Below, piece by piece: positions 14,122-51,473 of a DNA stretch of 64,000 nucleotides. A program made the translations under genes and the position numbers. The first letter of the stretch is position 1, and each line of letters opens with the position of its first letter. The notes below the pieces were generated by a model. It saw only the letters and a list, made by a program, of their open reading frames with translations. It was not told the DNA's origin and made no database searches. The DNA comes from Anaeromusa acidaminophila DSM 3853 (GTDB lineage Bacteria > Bacillota > Negativicutes > Anaeromusales > Anaeromusaceae): the NCBI RefSeq assembly GCF_000374545.1, contig NZ_KB894582.1, positions 62,001-126,000 of the forward strand. Direction: 5' to 3'.

Positions 14122-16134
14122 TCAAATTTTAAACTTCGCCACTGTTTCACGGAGTTCTTCCGCCATGCAAGACAAGGCTTGGCTGGAAGAGGCGATTTCT
14201 TCCATCGAGGCGGATTGTTCTTCGGTGGCGGCGGAGACGGTCTGCGTTTGCTCGCTAGTTTTACGGCTGTGTTCATCAATGGTGCGAATGGAAGAGACCA
14301 TGGCTTCATTTCCTTTGGTGATAGCGCTGAAAGCTTCGGACATAGCCGTAACCTGTTCGGAAATGGAGGTAATGAAGGAAGAAATTTCTCGGAAGGAGTC
14401 GCCCGCTGTTGCGACCACATGATTTCCTTGTTCTACTTCTTTCGTGCCTGCATTCATGGCGGCTACTGCTGTTGCCGTTTCGCTTTGAATTTCGCCGATC
14501 AATTGGGCGATTTTCTTGGCTGCTTCTTGGGATTGTTCCGCCAGCTTTCGTACTTCTTCGGCGACAACAGCGAAGCCGCGGCCTTGTTCGCCCGCTCGGG
14601 CCGCTTCGATGGCGGCATTTAGGGCCAGCAGATTGGTCTGGCTGGCAATGCCGGAAATCGTGTCGATGATCTGACCGATTTCCTGAGAACGCGCTCCTAG
14701 GTTAGTTACCACTTGCGCTGAGCGGCTGACAGATTGAGAAATGGCTGCCATTTGCTGCGTGGCGGCGGCAATGGAGGCATCCCCGCTAGCGGCGGCTGTA
14801 GAAGTGCTGGTTACCGTAGCGACAATTTGCGAGCTGTTTTTTGCTAAATTGTTGATGTGCAGAGATGTTTCTTCTACGGTATGCAGAGCGTCTTGCATGC
14901 TATGCTGTTGTGCGTCGGCACTGCTCGCTACCAGGCTGATTGACTCGGCTACTTGGTTGACAGCTTGTGCGGACTGGTCGGTGCTGGCCGTCAACTGCTG
15001 CGAGGAAGCGGCTAACTGTTCCGAAGACTGAGCGACCCGTTGGACCAAGTGACGCATGTTTTCCGCCATAGAAGCAAAATTGGCGCTTAAGAGTTGTAAT
15101 TCATCGGCTGAGTCAGAGCGCGCAGAAGCTTGGTTCCCGGAGGCGACGGTTAAATCGCCTTGGGCCATGAATTCGACCTGCTCGTTGAGGCGAGTGATGG
15201 GACGAATGAGCCGTCTGGCGGCAAAGGCTCCTGCTGCGCAGGTAAGAACTAGAATGATTAGGCTAAGACCGATGGAGATGAAGGTAAAGGCGGATAGTTT
15301 AGCCGTTACTTCTTCTTTCGGAACTTCCAGAGCCAAGCTCCAGCTTGTACCTTCGATGGGGGCGTACGCCAGATAATGAGAGCCGCCGACGGCGTCATAT
15401 TGGCCTAGGCCTTCTTCGCCGCGGGTCATTTTTTCGCCAAGCGCTTTTATTGAGGCAGGGATGGCTTCGTCTTTCAACAGATTTTGCTTCATGACTTTTT
15501 CCTTATCAGGATGGCTGATTAAAAGACCGTCTTTTTGGATCATGAAAGCAAAGCCGCTTTGGGCAAACCGAATTTCTCCAAGACGTTTCATCAAGGTATC
15601 TACGGTCAGGGTGCCGCCGATAACGCCGGTGATTTGGCCGTTTTTCTTGATCGGTGCGACGATAGAGATAACCGTCTTTCCTTCGACTTTGGAAATAATG
15701 GGGTCTGTAATCAAGGGCTTGCCAGTACTCATGACTTGCTTGAAATAAGCCCGGTCGGCAATGTTCGTACGGTCGCCGGTAGAATGAATCGCTCGTCCTT
15801 GGGTATCAACCAGCCAGAAACGTAAAAAGTTCGGATTGCGTTTGGCTTCTTCCCGTAAGAAGGCTAGAGCGGCATCGGTATCGCCGTTAACAATACTGGG
15901 CATCGTTGAGAGGAGCGAGACTTCCTGTTCGCTGGCGTTTAACCATAAGCTGACTTCTTTGGCATAGCCTGTGGACTGCTCGACTAATAACTCTTCGGCA
16001 TCGTTGATTAAAATACTCCTAGCATTGTAATAGTTGGCAAAGCCAAGAATACTAAGGGAAAGCAGCAGACCGCAAATGACGAAAAGAATTACTTTGGCGG
16101 TTAGGCTACTTTGGATCTGTTTACAAAAAGACAC
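14122..16134 (-). CDS. Methyl-accepting chemotaxis protein with Cache sensor
   Basis: A 670-residue transmembrane chemoreceptor. Helix 1 is at residues 15-35 ([18 protein letters not shown]). A periplasmic double-Cache-like sensor follows ([48 protein letters not shown]), then helix 2 near residue 285, a HAMP segment ([20 protein letters not shown]) and a long coiled-coil signalling domain. The hairpin tip reads [20 protein letters not shown], the conserved CheA/CheW contact. The start is GTG at 16134 with GGGGTG upstream. It is a single gene; its ligand is unknown, though Cache receptors usually bind small organic molecules or amino acids. Confidence 0.92.
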
Positions 16135-28133: not shown

Positions 28134-28577
28134 ATGCGTAAGTCAGTATTGTTATTTGTTCTGTGCGCGCTTCTTTGGACGCTTCCTGAAGTGGCGGCGG
28201 CTGAAGGCATGGCTTGGAGGGAGCTTCCTGTAGTGGCTCAAGTGCAGTGGGATGGTAAGCTAGGCGGTACGGAAAGCCTGCAACTGCAGCTGCGGGCGGG
28301 ACAGACGGTACAAGTAGATTTGATGGCGGCGGCTGGTACAGGGTATCTCTGGAGCACGCCGATTACAGCGGACTTGAAGTATGCTGTTTTAGCGCATGAT
28401 TCCGGCCCTCAGGCGCTGACGGAGCGCGCAGGCGGTCCATTACAGCAGCGTTTGTTCTACCAGGCCCGCGGCGGCGTGGAAGGCACGGAAACACTGACTT
28501 TTGTGCTGCGCCGTCCTTGGGAAGCCGCAGACAAAGTTGCCGCTACCAGGACGCTGACTATCAGCGTTAAACCGTAA
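28134..28577 (+). CDS. Secreted chagasin-like (I42) protease inhibitor
   Basis: A 147-residue exported protein. The signal peptide MRKSVLLFVLCALLWTLPEV is cut near AAAEG. The mature part has the three inhibitory-loop signatures of the chagasin family in the right order. GTGYLWS (about residue 67) corresponds to NPTTGY, the GG-rich turn AGGPLQQRLFYQARGG corresponds to the G-x-G loop, and VLRRPWE (about residue 127) is the conserved RPW. The family blocks papain-like cysteine proteases. No such protease is encoded nearby. An inverted repeat C and a terminator follow. Confidence 0.8.
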   Translation: MRKSVLLFVLCALLWTLPEVAAAEGMAWRELPVVAQVQWDGKLGGTESLQLQLRAGQTVQVDLMAAAGTGYLWSTPITADLKYAVLAHDSGPQALTERAGGPLQQRLFYQARGGVEGTETLTFVLRRPWEAADKVAATRTLTISVKP

Positions 28578-36231: not shown

Positions 36232-37080
36232 ATGAAGCCTTTACGCATTTTAGTGGTGGATGATTCGCCTTTTAGCCAGAAAATCATGACGGGACTGTTG
36301 AAAAAGAATGGTTTTGATGTTTGCGGTTATGCGGATACAGGGGGACAAGGCATAGAACAGTATCGGGAGTTGAGACCTGATGTTGTAACTATGGACATGA
36401 CATTGCCGGATATGGACGGCTTGGAATGCAGCAAGGCGATTCTGGCGGCGGACCCGACGGCCAAAATTGTTATGGTAAGCGCTATGAAAGACGAAACTTT
36501 AATGACAAATGGCTATACGGCCGGAATTAAAGGGTTTGTGCAAAAGCCGCCGCGAGCGGAAGAATTAGCGGAATTGATACGCAAGGTGTGCCAAGAAGCG
36601 GAAGAATGTTCTTTGTGCCAAAAATACCTGGCTTTTTTTGAACAATCGCTGCAAGAGAATCTTAGCTACATGGTTGGCGTCGAAAGCGAAATAGAGACTG
36701 AGCCGGACAACGAAAGCAAATTTTTATCACAAGGTGTAGCGGTAATTGTGGGCTTGACCGGAAAGGTGCAGGGCCGGGTCATTTTGGATAGCTCCGAGCA
36801 AACGGCGCAGCAATTAACGCGCATGATTCTTAGTACTGAAGAAGTATCGGAAGATGATATGCTGAACGGCATGGCGGAACTGGCGAATATTGTCAGTGGT
36901 AATGGCGTATCTTCTGTAAACAACGCGTATCGGGAGCTGGAACTGCGGTTGACGCCGCCAAGTATTCTTTGCGGGAGAAAAATTAGCATTGTCAATCCAA
37001 AACTAGATGCTTACATTATGACGGCGCAGACGCCGTATGGGGATATTCGTATGAGCATTGGCTTCGCAGGGGGGAAATAA
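36232..37080 (+). CDS. CheY-like receiver fused to CheX-type phosphatase domain
   Basis: A 282-residue two-domain protein. The receiver is at residues 1-120 (LRILVVDDSPFSQKIMTGLL, phospho-Asp in VTMDMTLPDMDG, Lys in GFVQKPPRAEEL). A short linker with paired Cys residues (ECSLCQKYL) follows, then a CheX/CheC-like domain at about 150-282. That domain's helix carries the E-x-x-N phosphatase motif (GMAELANIVSGNG). CheX domains remove phosphate from CheY-P. In this fusion the domain could dephosphorylate its own receiver or be controlled by it. It lies immediately upstream of a stand-alone CheX and probably in the same operon. Confidence 0.88.
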   Translation: MKPLRILVVDDSPFSQKIMTGLLKKNGFDVCGYADTGGQGIEQYRELRPDVVTMDMTLPDMDGLECSKAILAADPTAKIVMVSAMKDETLMTNGYTAGIKGFVQKPPRAEELAELIRKVCQEAEECSLCQKYLAFFEQSLQENLSYMVGVESEIETEPDNESKFLSQGVAVIVGLTGKVQGRVILDSSEQTAQQLTRMILSTEEVSEDDMLNGMAELANIVSGNGVSSVNNAYRELELRLTPPSILCGRKISIVNPKLDAYIMTAQTPYGDIRMSIGFAGGK

Positions 37081-37081
37081 C

Positions 37082-37549
37082 ATGGATGCAAAAATGATTA
37101 ATCCCTTCGTGGATGCCGTGGCGACGGTCTTGCCTCAGCTTGGCTTTCAATCGGTAGAGCGGGGGCAAATCCGCCTGGGGGAAGAATTCGTAGAAGGCCG
37201 GGGCGTGACGGTATTGATTGGCTTAACACAAGATGTGCAAGGCAATCTGGCCTATAATTTTACGGAAGAGGCGGCTAAAGGCATTGCTTCAACCATGATG
37301 ATGGGGATGCCGGTAACGCAGATGGATGAGATGGCGCAAAGCGCTATTTCTGAATTAGTGAATATGATTACCGCCAATGCGGCGACTCACTTTTCTTCAC
37401 AAAATTTGCTTGTTGATATTTCGCCACCGAGCTTGGTTGTGGGTGAGGCTCTTAAGGCACGGATCAGCAACGGAAAATTCTTGGTTGTAGAAGTGAATGC
37501 AGACAGCTATTCCTTTGAATTGAATATTGGCATTGCCAGCAGCAAGTAA
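37082..37549 (+). CDS. cheX: CheX-family CheY-P phosphatase
   Basis: A 155-residue stand-alone CheX. The N-terminus MDAKMINPFVDAVATVLPQLGF is the typical first helix, and the E-x-x-N motif is in AISELVNMITANAATHFSSQ. The central strands include VTVLIGLTQDVQGNLAYNF. It should dephosphorylate CheY-P in the cytoplasm and shorten the motor response. The ATG at 37082 lies one base after the stop of the CheY-CheX gene, with GGGGGG upstream, so the two are co-translated. A strong terminator follows. Confidence 0.88.
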   Translation: MDAKMINPFVDAVATVLPQLGFQSVERGQIRLGEEFVEGRGVTVLIGLTQDVQGNLAYNFTEEAAKGIASTMMMGMPVTQMDEMAQSAISELVNMITANAATHFSSQNLLVDISPPSLVVGEALKARISNGKFLVVEVNADSYSFELNIGIASSK

Positions 37550-48996: not shown

Positions 48997-51348
48997 TTAT
49001 TGCTGCACGATGATGCGGCTGATTTTGAGGCTGTTGGGCAAGGTGTTTTCAGGGTTTCCCTGCAGCCATTCCGTAGGCAGTGACTCGACAGAAACTCCAA
49101 GCTCAAAGAGAACATTAGTATCGCTGGCAGTAGCAAGGAAGGAACCGTCCATATAACGAATGGCCTTTAACGTATGACTTTGACGCAATTCTCCCAATGT
49201 GGAACCGACGCCGATATTTTTGTTGGTGCGGAACGCAGAGGAATAGACGTCAATGCTTAAAACGGAACGAGAGGGGCTGAGCGTGATAGAAAGCGATGGG
49301 GTAGTGTCACGCGGGTCTGGATAGACATTTAAGATTTGATAGCGGCGATCCGCAATATAGATTTCATCTGGACTGATTTTGGCTTCCGGATAGGCGCTGC
49401 GAATGCCGGCTAAGCCCAAACCTATTTTTATGGGGCCGGCTTGGCCGTTTGCCAAAAGAAATGACGGAGCAATTTGGCTGTCCGGTACGTTAGAAGGCTT
49501 CGAGGTTGCTAGTTCCGGCGGCGGGGCCGGCGGCGTTCCGGCGGCTGGACCTTCGTCCGGCGCATTGAGCGAACGAAGCCATTGTACAACTGCTCCTTGG
49601 TTGCGGTTGGCGGCCAAACGCAAGGCGGTTTGCCCTAATTTGTCTTTGCGGGCCAGGTCAGCGCCACGGTCAATTAAAAGACGTACGACATCAAGTCGTC
49701 CGGCTGCGGCCGCACGCATAAGCGCGGTTTGCTTATCTTTATCGATGGCATTTACGTTGGCGCCATGATTCAACAAGAGTTCTACTGTCGCTAGGCGGCC
49801 TGATTCTGAGGCGGCAATGAGAGGCGTGTAACCGTCAAAGGCTCGGAAGACTTCCGGCGACATGCCTGCATCTAAGAAAAGTCCAGCTACGGTCAAATTA
49901 CCGCGTTCAGCATTTTCGACAAAAGCTTGTTGACTGAAAGCGACGCCTTTTTGAGATAATGCTTCCTTCGGCGCCAGCGTTGCGGCATCATCCGAACCAT
50001 GCTGCTTTACGCCTAAATAGTAACCAGCGAGAACTACTAGAGGAAGTAAAAGCAAGGTTGTGGCTGCAATCGCCTTGAAGCTGAGCTTACGGGCGCTAAC
50101 ATCCTCTTCTTCCGTGGCGGAAGTTGAAGAGGCTTCGCTCTTGACTGGTATTGCTTCTTGCGCTTCCAGCGCAGCGGCGCGTTTGCGTAAAGGAAGTTTA
50201 GCAAACCATGTCTTAAGAAGCAGTAAAAATGCAGCGAAGCGTCCTGACAGAGCGGAAGTGGAGGATGGCGTTTCTTCAACCACCGGTTCGATGGTAGCAG
50301 TTTCTGCATCGGATAAGATAGGAACTGGCTGCGTGTCATCCAACTTAGGAGTTGCTTCGGCAGGCGTTTCTTGCTCGGTTTGCTCAAGCGGTCCTAAATC
50401 GGAAAGAAGCTTTTCAATATCGTCTTGGCTCATTTGGGCGTTCGGATCGGCTGCCGGTGCAGCAGGAGCTTCTTCCGGCGCAGTTTCCGCGACCGGCGTT
50501 TCTTCCGCCTTCTCCGGTTCGCTTGGCATGGAGGCCAAGAGCGCTGCAATGTCATCCTGGCTCATTTGAACGTTCGGATCAGCTGCCGGTGCAGCAGGAA
50601 CTTCTTCCGGCGCAGTTTTTGCAACCGGCGGTTCTTCTGCCTTCTCCGGCTCGCTTTGCATAGAGGCCAAGAGAGCCGCAATATCGTCCTGACTCATCTG
50701 GGCGTTCGGATCAGCCGCCGGTGCAGCAGGGGCCGCTTCGGGCGCAGTTTCTGCGACAGGCGGTTCTTCTGCCTTTTCCGGCTCGCTTTGCATGGAGGCC
50801 AAAAGCGCTGCAATATCGTCCTGGCTCATTTGGGCGTTCGGATCAGCCGCTGGTGCGGCAGGTGCGGCTTCCGGCGCAGCTTCTGCGACAGGCGGTTCTT
50901 CGGCTTTCTCCGGCTCGCTTTGCATAGAGGCCAAGAGAGCCGCGATATCATCCTGGCTCATCTGGGCGTTCGGGTCGGCTGCCGGTGCGGCAGATGCCGC
51001 TTCGGGCGCAGCTTCTGCGACAGCTGGTTCTTCCGCTTTCTCCGGCTCGCTTTGCATAGAAGCCAAAAGCGCTGCAATATCATCTTGGCTCATCTGGGCG
51101 TTCGGATCGGCTGCCGGTGCAGCAGGCGCCGCTTCAACAGGTTCGGCGGCTTTTTCTGGTTCTGTTTGCATGGAAGCAAATAACGCTGCAATGTCATCCT
51201 GACTCATTTGCGCGTTGGGATCTTGGCTGGACACGCCAACGGACCCTGCTGGAGGTGTCTCTGCCGGAGTTTCCTCTGGCGGCAGCGTTTTCAGCAGGGC
51301 TGTAATTTCTTCTTGTGTTAATGTTGCGTGAGGCGCCTTGTCATTCAT
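48997..51348 (-). CDS. Membrane protein with eight FliM-like N-terminal motifs and ankyrin repeats
   Basis: A 783-residue protein I do not recognise as a known family. Residues 8-20 contain LTQEEITALLKTL. From residue 48 there are seven copies of MSQDDIAALLASM-type motifs at 48, 86, 130, 174, 218, 262 and 306, mostly 44 residues apart and joined by Ala/Pro/Glu linkers. The motif resembles the LSQDEIDALL N-terminus of FliM, which binds CheY-P. A single transmembrane helix lies at 425-445 with Arg/Lys before it, so the repeats should be cytoplasmic. Ankyrin repeats follow at about 472-595 and an unknown beta-rich domain at about 620-783, both outside. The start at 51348 is 9 nt after AAGGA; an ATG two codons earlier is possible. 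Confidence 0.8.
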   Translation of the reverse strand: MNDKAPHATLTQEEITALLKTLPPEETPAETPPAGSVGVSSQDPNAQMSQDDIAALFASMQTEPEKAAEPVEAAPAAPAADPNAQMSQDDIAALLASMQSEPEKAEEPAVAEAAPEAASAAPAADPNAQMSQDDIAALLASMQSEPEKAEEPPVAEAAPEAAPAAPAADPNAQMSQDDIAALLASMQSEPEKAEEPPVAETAPEAAPAAPAADPNAQMSQDDIAALLASMQSEPEKAEEPPVAKTAPEEVPAAPAADPNVQMSQDDIAALLASMPSEPEKAEETPVAETAPEEAPAAPAADPNAQMSQDDIEKLLSDLGPLEQTEQETPAEATPKLDDTQPVPILSDAETATIEPVVEETPSSTSALSGRFAAFLLLLKTWFAKLPLRKRAAALEAQEAIPVKSEASSTSATEEEDVSARKLSFKAIAATTLLLLPLVVLAGYYLGVKQHGSDDAATLAPKEALSQKGVAFSQQAFVENAERGNLTVAGLFLDAGMSPEVFRAFDGYTPLIAASESGRLATVELLLNHGANVNAIDKDKQTALMRAAAAGRLDVVRLLIDRGADLARKDKLGQTALRLAANRNQGAVVQWLRSLNAPDEGPAAGTPPAPPPELATSKPSNVPDSQIAPSFLLANGQAGPIKIGLGLAGIRSAYPEAKISPDEIYIADRRYQILNVYPDPRDTTPSLSITLSPSRSVLSIDVYSSAFRTNKNIGVGSTLGELRQSHTLKAIRYMDGSFLATASDTNVLFELGVSVESLPTEWLQGNPENTLPNSLKISRIIVQQ
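50413..51210. repeat. Tandem 132-bp coding repeats
   Basis: Five full 132-bp units and a shorter first unit (114 bp), plus a partial last one, inside the ankyrin-protein gene. Each unit encodes DPNAQ-MSQDDI-AALLASM and an acidic Ala/Pro linker. Units differ by scattered, mostly silent or linker changes, so they are not a recent perfect expansion. Copy number is likely to vary between strains. Confidence 0.9.
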
Positions 51349-51473
51349 TGGCATCGTTCCTTCGATTGTTCTGAGTGGGCAAGGCGATTGGGAAGCAGGC
51401 GCTTCCTCTAAAATGGCTTCCAGCGTAGCTGTAGCCAGAAGTTACCTTGCAAAATGACCGGAGTATGGTATCA

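Follow-up and report, generated by a model that had tools for sequence, protein, structure and literature searches.

In known chemotaxis systems, the flagellar motor reads phosphorylated CheY (CheY-P) and phosphatases remove it. The E. coli FliM peptide is LSQAEIDALL; at its C terminus CheZ has a similar helix, acidic and amphipathic, which docks on the same CheY face. CheY-P is bound by the EIDALL motif of FliM and FliY, and the role described for the FliM N-terminus (FliM-N) is to concentrate CheY-P for the core of FliM (PMC9126983); the same paper cites a Kd of 27 uM reported for a FliM peptide. In E. coli, a salt bridge joins FliM Asp12 to CheY Lys119 (PMC7012829). Membrane hubs offer a second point of comparison. 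HubP contains acidic repeats that differ in number from one species to a close relative (PMC12918733), and FimL, bound to the polar hub FimV, recruits the CheY-like PilG to the pole (PMC10519157). We found no mention in the open-access papers searched of multivalent FliM-like tails or of the protein described here.

This protein, P0001, is encoded in the window, the whole 64,000-nucleotide stretch of Anaeromusa acidaminophila DNA that we analysed. From the N to the C terminus it consists of an acidic, motif-bearing tail, one transmembrane (TM) helix, ankyrin repeats and a C-terminal domain, and from sequence and structure models it is best read as a bitopic inner-membrane scaffold. The earlier note gave its span as 48997-51348. 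Position 51348 is indeed an in-frame second ATG (MPMNDK), with good spacing from a GAAGGA-like ribosome site and as plausible a start as 51354, but the full ORF reaches 51354. The features are as follows.

48997..51354, minus strand: whole ORF, 785-aa bitopic membrane protein P0001 (ORF listing)
51292..51321, minus strand: motif 1, LTQEEITALL, residues 12-21, the most FliM/FliY-like copy (DNA pattern search and matrix)
51178..51207, minus strand: motif 2, MSQDDIAALF, residues 50-59 (DNA pattern search and matrix)
51064..51093, minus strand: motif 3, MSQDDIAALL, residues 88-97 (DNA pattern search and matrix)
50932..50961, minus strand: motif 4, MSQDDIAALL, residues 132-141 (DNA pattern search and matrix)
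50800..50829, minus strand: motif 5, MSQDDIAALL, residues 176-185 (DNA pattern search and matrix)
50668..50697, minus strand: motif 6, MSQDDIAALL, residues 220-229 (DNA pattern search and matrix)
50536..50565, minus strand: motif 7, MSQDDIAALL, residues 264-273 (DNA pattern search and matrix)
50404..50433, minus strand: motif 8, MSQDDIEKLL, residues 308-317 (DNA pattern search and copy comparison)
50415..51135, minus strand: 132-bp tandem repeat array with a 44-aa unit, DPN-x-x-motif plus a Glu/Pro/Ala linker (repeat search)
50008..50076, minus strand: single TM helix, about residues 427-449, predicted N-in, C-out (hydropathy, flanking charge and predicted helix)
49561..49932, minus strand: ankyrin repeats, about residues 475-598, predicted periplasmic (Ank_2, E 3.4e-25, and model)
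49000..49461, minus strand: C-terminal domain, about residues 632-785, YfeY/DUF1131-like predicted fold (structure model and fold search)

A motif array in the N-terminal tail

All eight motif copies that the earlier note had placed within the first 320 residues were located, and seven are identical in MSQDDI as it had stated, motif 1 (LTQEEI) being the exception. They lie in a low-complexity region, with a net charge of about -65 before the TM helix, at start-to-start spacings of 38, 38 and then five times 44 residues. At the DNA level the tandem repeat comprises 5.5 copies, a copy number that could be collapsed in this draft assembly. Motif 8 has the counterpart MSQDEIEKLLSDL in the three congeners.

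A degenerate DNA pattern for the motif gave nine matches in the 3.48-Mb genome, eight of them in this ORF and the ninth in a TamB/AsmA-like protein, and the reversed pattern gave none across the same genome; the array is thus more than chance. Searches with the spacings and the Met-initiated motif found no other protein with such arrays, either in the 380 Negativicutes genomes or in the 397 further genomes of a phylum sample.

Motif 8 (SQDDIEKLLSDLG) resembles the CheY-binding helix at the C terminus of CheZ. The Pfam CheZ match covers the C-terminal end only (E 1.3, 9.3 bits against a cut-off of 30.7), and the four-helix phosphatase domain of CheZ is absent here. Pfam matches of the tail to Nif11, CheZ and iHD-CE all fell below their own cut-offs and were rejected.

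Resemblance to the FliM/FliY N-terminus

FliM of the same genome begins VLSQSEIDELLNAL, and its FliY begins FLSQEELDALLKG and contains FLSQEELDALL. We scored the motifs with a matrix built from 22 FliM/FliY peptides of other Negativicutes genomes, using as background 137,558 13-mers from unrelated ORFs. Motif 1 (TLTQEEITALLKT) scored 16.8, above every background 13-mer (best 15.3), and the common MSQDDIAALL copies scored 8.5, which about four background 13-mers also attained. When tails were shuffled, none or very few of the shuffles equalled the best motif in families f1 and f18, in most of f10 and in part of f6. The array of genome G018, which belongs to another family, did not beat its shuffles (45 of 500 reached its score), and for one Pelosinus-like protein over half of the shuffles reached the tail score. 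The resemblance to the FliM N-terminus noticed earlier is therefore above background for the leading motif and weaker for later copies.

Like FliM and FliY, P0001 has an N-capped short helix of the form [LM]-[ST]-Q-x-[DE]-I-x-x-L-L whose first copy lies near the N-terminus, with a hydrophobic register in common at motif positions 1, 6, 9, 10 and 13. Unlike them, it carries this helix in eight tandem copies on a transmembrane protein, with Asp12 usually replaced and Gln8 often Pro. Gln8 is invariant across the 22 FliM/FliY peptides used, and its position is occupied by Pro in many amplified copies, including all 14 in G018; the Asp12 position is Ala in amplified copies. Together with the matrix and shuffle results, this indicates that the leading motifs are FliM-like and that the amplified copies drift at Gln8 and Asp12. 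The Asp12-Lys119 bridge would be unusable here anyway, because the organism's CheY, aligned by eye, has Ala at the Lys119 position. We found no Pfam or NCBIfam match in P0001 to the FliM middle (CheC-like) domain or the SpoA (FliMN_C) domain.

The drift bears on a possible alternative, to which we give appreciably less than an even chance: the multivalent tail may dock a different partner, such as a receiver from outside chemotaxis, a ParA/MinD-type protein or a structural protein, which would make P0001 a HubP/FimV-like landmark with its own client. Any amphipathic helix capped by Ser or Thr would then look as FliM-like as these motifs do. In favour of this alternative, Gln8 and Asp12 drift in amplified copies in which D-D-I-x-A-L-[LF]-A-S-M and the DPN before it are nearly fixed, but the leading motifs keep the FliM-like Gln and score like real FliM/FliY peptides.

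Constraint on the motif between repeat copies

We compared the repeat copies within each gene in five genomes, taking pN and pS as raw proportions. Motif codons had a pS of 0.42-0.65 and a pN of 0-0.046, and linkers a pS of 0.27-0.49 and a pN of 0.06-0.14. The resulting pN/pS was 0.00/0.11/0.07/0.07/0.03 for the motif versus 0.14/0.24/0.41/0.24/0.33 for the linkers in the five genomes; since pS is high in places and the values are raw, and exchange between copies could lower both pN and pS, only the contrast between motif and linker should be read. Within P0001, the five copies at 44-residue spacing showed synonymous differences only across 13 motif codons, and the DPN before the motif was likewise fixed. 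Because motif residues are far more constrained than linkers, the comparison argues for a docking helix that is kept copy by copy under purifying selection.

It also makes it highly improbable that the array is a neutral expansion of a partnerless low-complexity repeat. Such an expansion would suit a 132-bp tandem repeat whose copy number differs between congeners, the Glu/Pro/Ala-rich linkers and the existence of orthologues lacking the motif. However, in all five genomes synonymous changes have saturated the motif codons and the residues have stayed fixed, more strongly than in the linkers, and G018 amplifies an unrelated unit with the same core.

Membrane topology and the predicted extracytoplasmic part

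The single TM helix preceded by positive residues that had been reported from the sequence was confirmed (RK..K before the helix). The N-in/C-out charge signal beside it is modest in P0001 and clear in the orthologues of genomes G018, G038, G033 and G026, and we infer that the tail is cytoplasmic and that the ankyrin and C-terminal parts are periplasmic. Ankyrin repeats follow the helix, as had been described, with an Ank_2 score of 88.9 bits against a curated cut-off of 27.3 and a model that matched DARPins with a Z of about 22 in a fold search.

The C-terminal domain, called unknown in the earlier note, has no Pfam match in any of 11 members, but its model predicts a YfeY-like (DUF1131) fold. 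We modelled this domain separately because ankyrins filled the fold search with the whole model. The separate model (pLDDT 88, pTM 0.83) matched E. coli YfeY (2qzb) with a Foldseek E of 2.6e-08 and a Z of 15.4 over 139 aligned residues at 2.7 A, and next after YfeY came B. subtilis YjgB (DUF4309; Z 9.6). Identity to YfeY and YjgB is 13-14% or less, and here the domain is fused to a TM helix and ankyrin repeats. YfeY and YjgB both lie outside the cytoplasm, as the C-terminal domain would under the N-in/C-out topology that the charges flanking the TM helix suggest. A PDB profile match to titin was discarded, being a local match of 22 residues.

Other arrangements of these parts occur. The G048 orthologue (L113 6287-7303) has the TM helix and the C-terminal domain and lacks the ankyrin part, which the C-terminal domain therefore does not require. 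In G042 (L114 6169-7442) two adjacent ORFs, of 272 and 152 aa, encode the ankyrin part and the C-terminal domain separately, either a natural split or a frameshift. The window's own genome (C18) encodes a separate ankyrin protein with a lipobox (VLLAGC; L118 3568-4209), related to the ankyrin part of P0001 and adjoining a 158-aa secreted-looking protein that lacks a Pfam match; similar ankyrin proteins match in three congeners.

With HubP and FimV, P0001 shares a single TM helix, a periplasmic domain and a long, acidic, repeat-bearing cytoplasmic part. The order is reversed here, with the tail first; ankyrin repeats and a YfeY-like domain take the place of LysM, and the repeat holds one well-conserved helical motif. 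No LysM, TPR or FimV domain was matched in P0001 by Pfam or NCBIfam. A landmark with its own client draws some support here, since acidic repeats, one TM helix, a periplasmic domain and a variable copy number fit the description of HubP (PMC12918733). P0001 is neither a FliM nor a HubP: in its family a docking motif of known kind is multiplied on a transmembrane ankyrin protein.

A copy-number series across Negativicutes

We defined orthologues by the TM-ankyrin-C-terminal part and found them in 33 of 380 Negativicutes genomes from seven families (labels such as 'Pelosinus-like' are inferred from sequence), with 0-21 motifs each. Named members, from a collection scan with an eight-row alignment, include Propionispora sp. 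2/2-37 and several Sporomusa species. In the window genus the counts, including the leading LTQEEI, are 8 (P0001), 21, 12 and 12; short-read copy counts may be too low, because in G033 and G038 the contigs break off within the tail. G018 has 14 copies of the MSPDDIAALLASM type. The G038 gene, which lies over two contigs, begins with MSQAEIEALM, close to the E. coli FliM sequence, and MSQKEIEAFL, followed by MTPEEIEAML copies. Two motifs are present in Propionispora-type orthologues, one or two in those of family f18, and one degenerate helix (MSEAAIDELLAVA) in Pelosinus-like ones; Sporomusa-type orthologues have none and keep the TM helix, ankyrin repeats and C-terminal domain. The G038 gene (L182, L104) appears split, both contig ends falling inside the repeat array.

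FliM was present in all 33 genomes with the family versus 39 of 60 in a sample of relatives, a co-occurrence that partly reflects shared ancestry. Non-flagellated genomes that keep the motif, the case that the earlier note had named as refuting its reading, were looked for and not found. This confinement to FliM-bearing genomes also counts against a partner other than a chemotaxis receiver.

Gene context and proposed function

The chemotaxis genes cited earlier as context are present in the window:

14122-16134: MCP
36232-37080: CheY-CheX fusion gene, followed by a stand-alone CheX at 37085-37549

They are, however, at least 11 kb away, and none adjoins an orthologue. The CheY-CheX protein of this region might serve as an alternative receiver for the tail. 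In addition, the genome has a CheY adjoining fliY, a CheC and several stand-alone receivers. We found no flagellar operon or conserved motility-gene neighbourhood at the orthologue loci read, and the best scores for a sigma-28-like promoter upstream of the gene resembled those of random stretches. In the window genus the gene order is conserved, with the gene near rpsF/ssb and dnaB. G018 and the Pelosinus-like family (L103, L110, L111, L112) share a conserved order of their own, with metH and a noc-like gene flanking the orthologue within the mnmE-mnmG-rsmG-parAB region, close to the replication origin; neighbourhoods of the remaining orthologues are unrelated. The missing flagellar context, together with 45 receiver-domain places in the genome (E <= 1e-5), adds to the case for another partner.

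We consider it nearly an even bet that P0001 is a HubP-like bitopic scaffold with a tail that brings a CheY-type receiver to the membrane. More specifically, and a little more tentatively, it may be a membrane-anchored, copy-number-tunable CheY-P reservoir, in which up to about 20 copies of the motor's CheY-P docking helix, in a disordered tail, are coupled across the membrane to periplasmic ankyrin and YfeY-like domains. Each tail helix would bind weakly to the alpha4-alpha5 face of a CheY-type receiver, for which phosphorylated CheY is the likeliest candidate, and the tail would act as a membrane-bound reservoir or hub for it. Motif copy number would set its capacity, and a ligand of the periplasmic part might position or tune it. 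As CheY is monomeric, many sites would raise local capacity and rebinding, not affinity. We infer the client's identity, the phospho-dependence and any periplasmic input. The membrane hub holding CheY-P that the earlier note had proposed is partly supported: the FliM-like motif, the predicted cytoplasmic place of the tail, the FliM co-occurrence and selection on the motif speak for it, and it is weakened by the loss of Asp12, and often of Gln8, in the amplified copies, by the motif-free orthologues of Sporomusa and relatives, whose genomes do have FliM, and by the lack of a flagellar operon and of a sigma-28-like signal.

It is unlikely that the tail instead imitates FliM/FliY beside the C-ring, competing for or delivering CheY-P and so biasing switching. 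The motif evidence applies equally there, the membrane anchor would permit a place near the basal body, and FliM-N is itself described as concentrating CheY-P for the FliM core (PMC9126983), but P0001 lacks any sign of a motor-binding part, its ankyrin and C-terminal domains are predicted to be periplasmic, and gene linkage to the motor is absent.

If the scaffold reading is true, a protein with many FliM-like sites would add to chemotaxis a layer of buffering or localisation set by repeat number, in a class of diderm Firmicutes whose motility control has been little studied. Even with another partner, this conserved transmembrane ankyrin family offers a natural docking-motif series from 0 to 21. 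Elsewhere in the window, positions 28134-28577 encode a secreted-looking peptidase inhibitor of the chagasin family (Inhibitor_I42, 147 aa).
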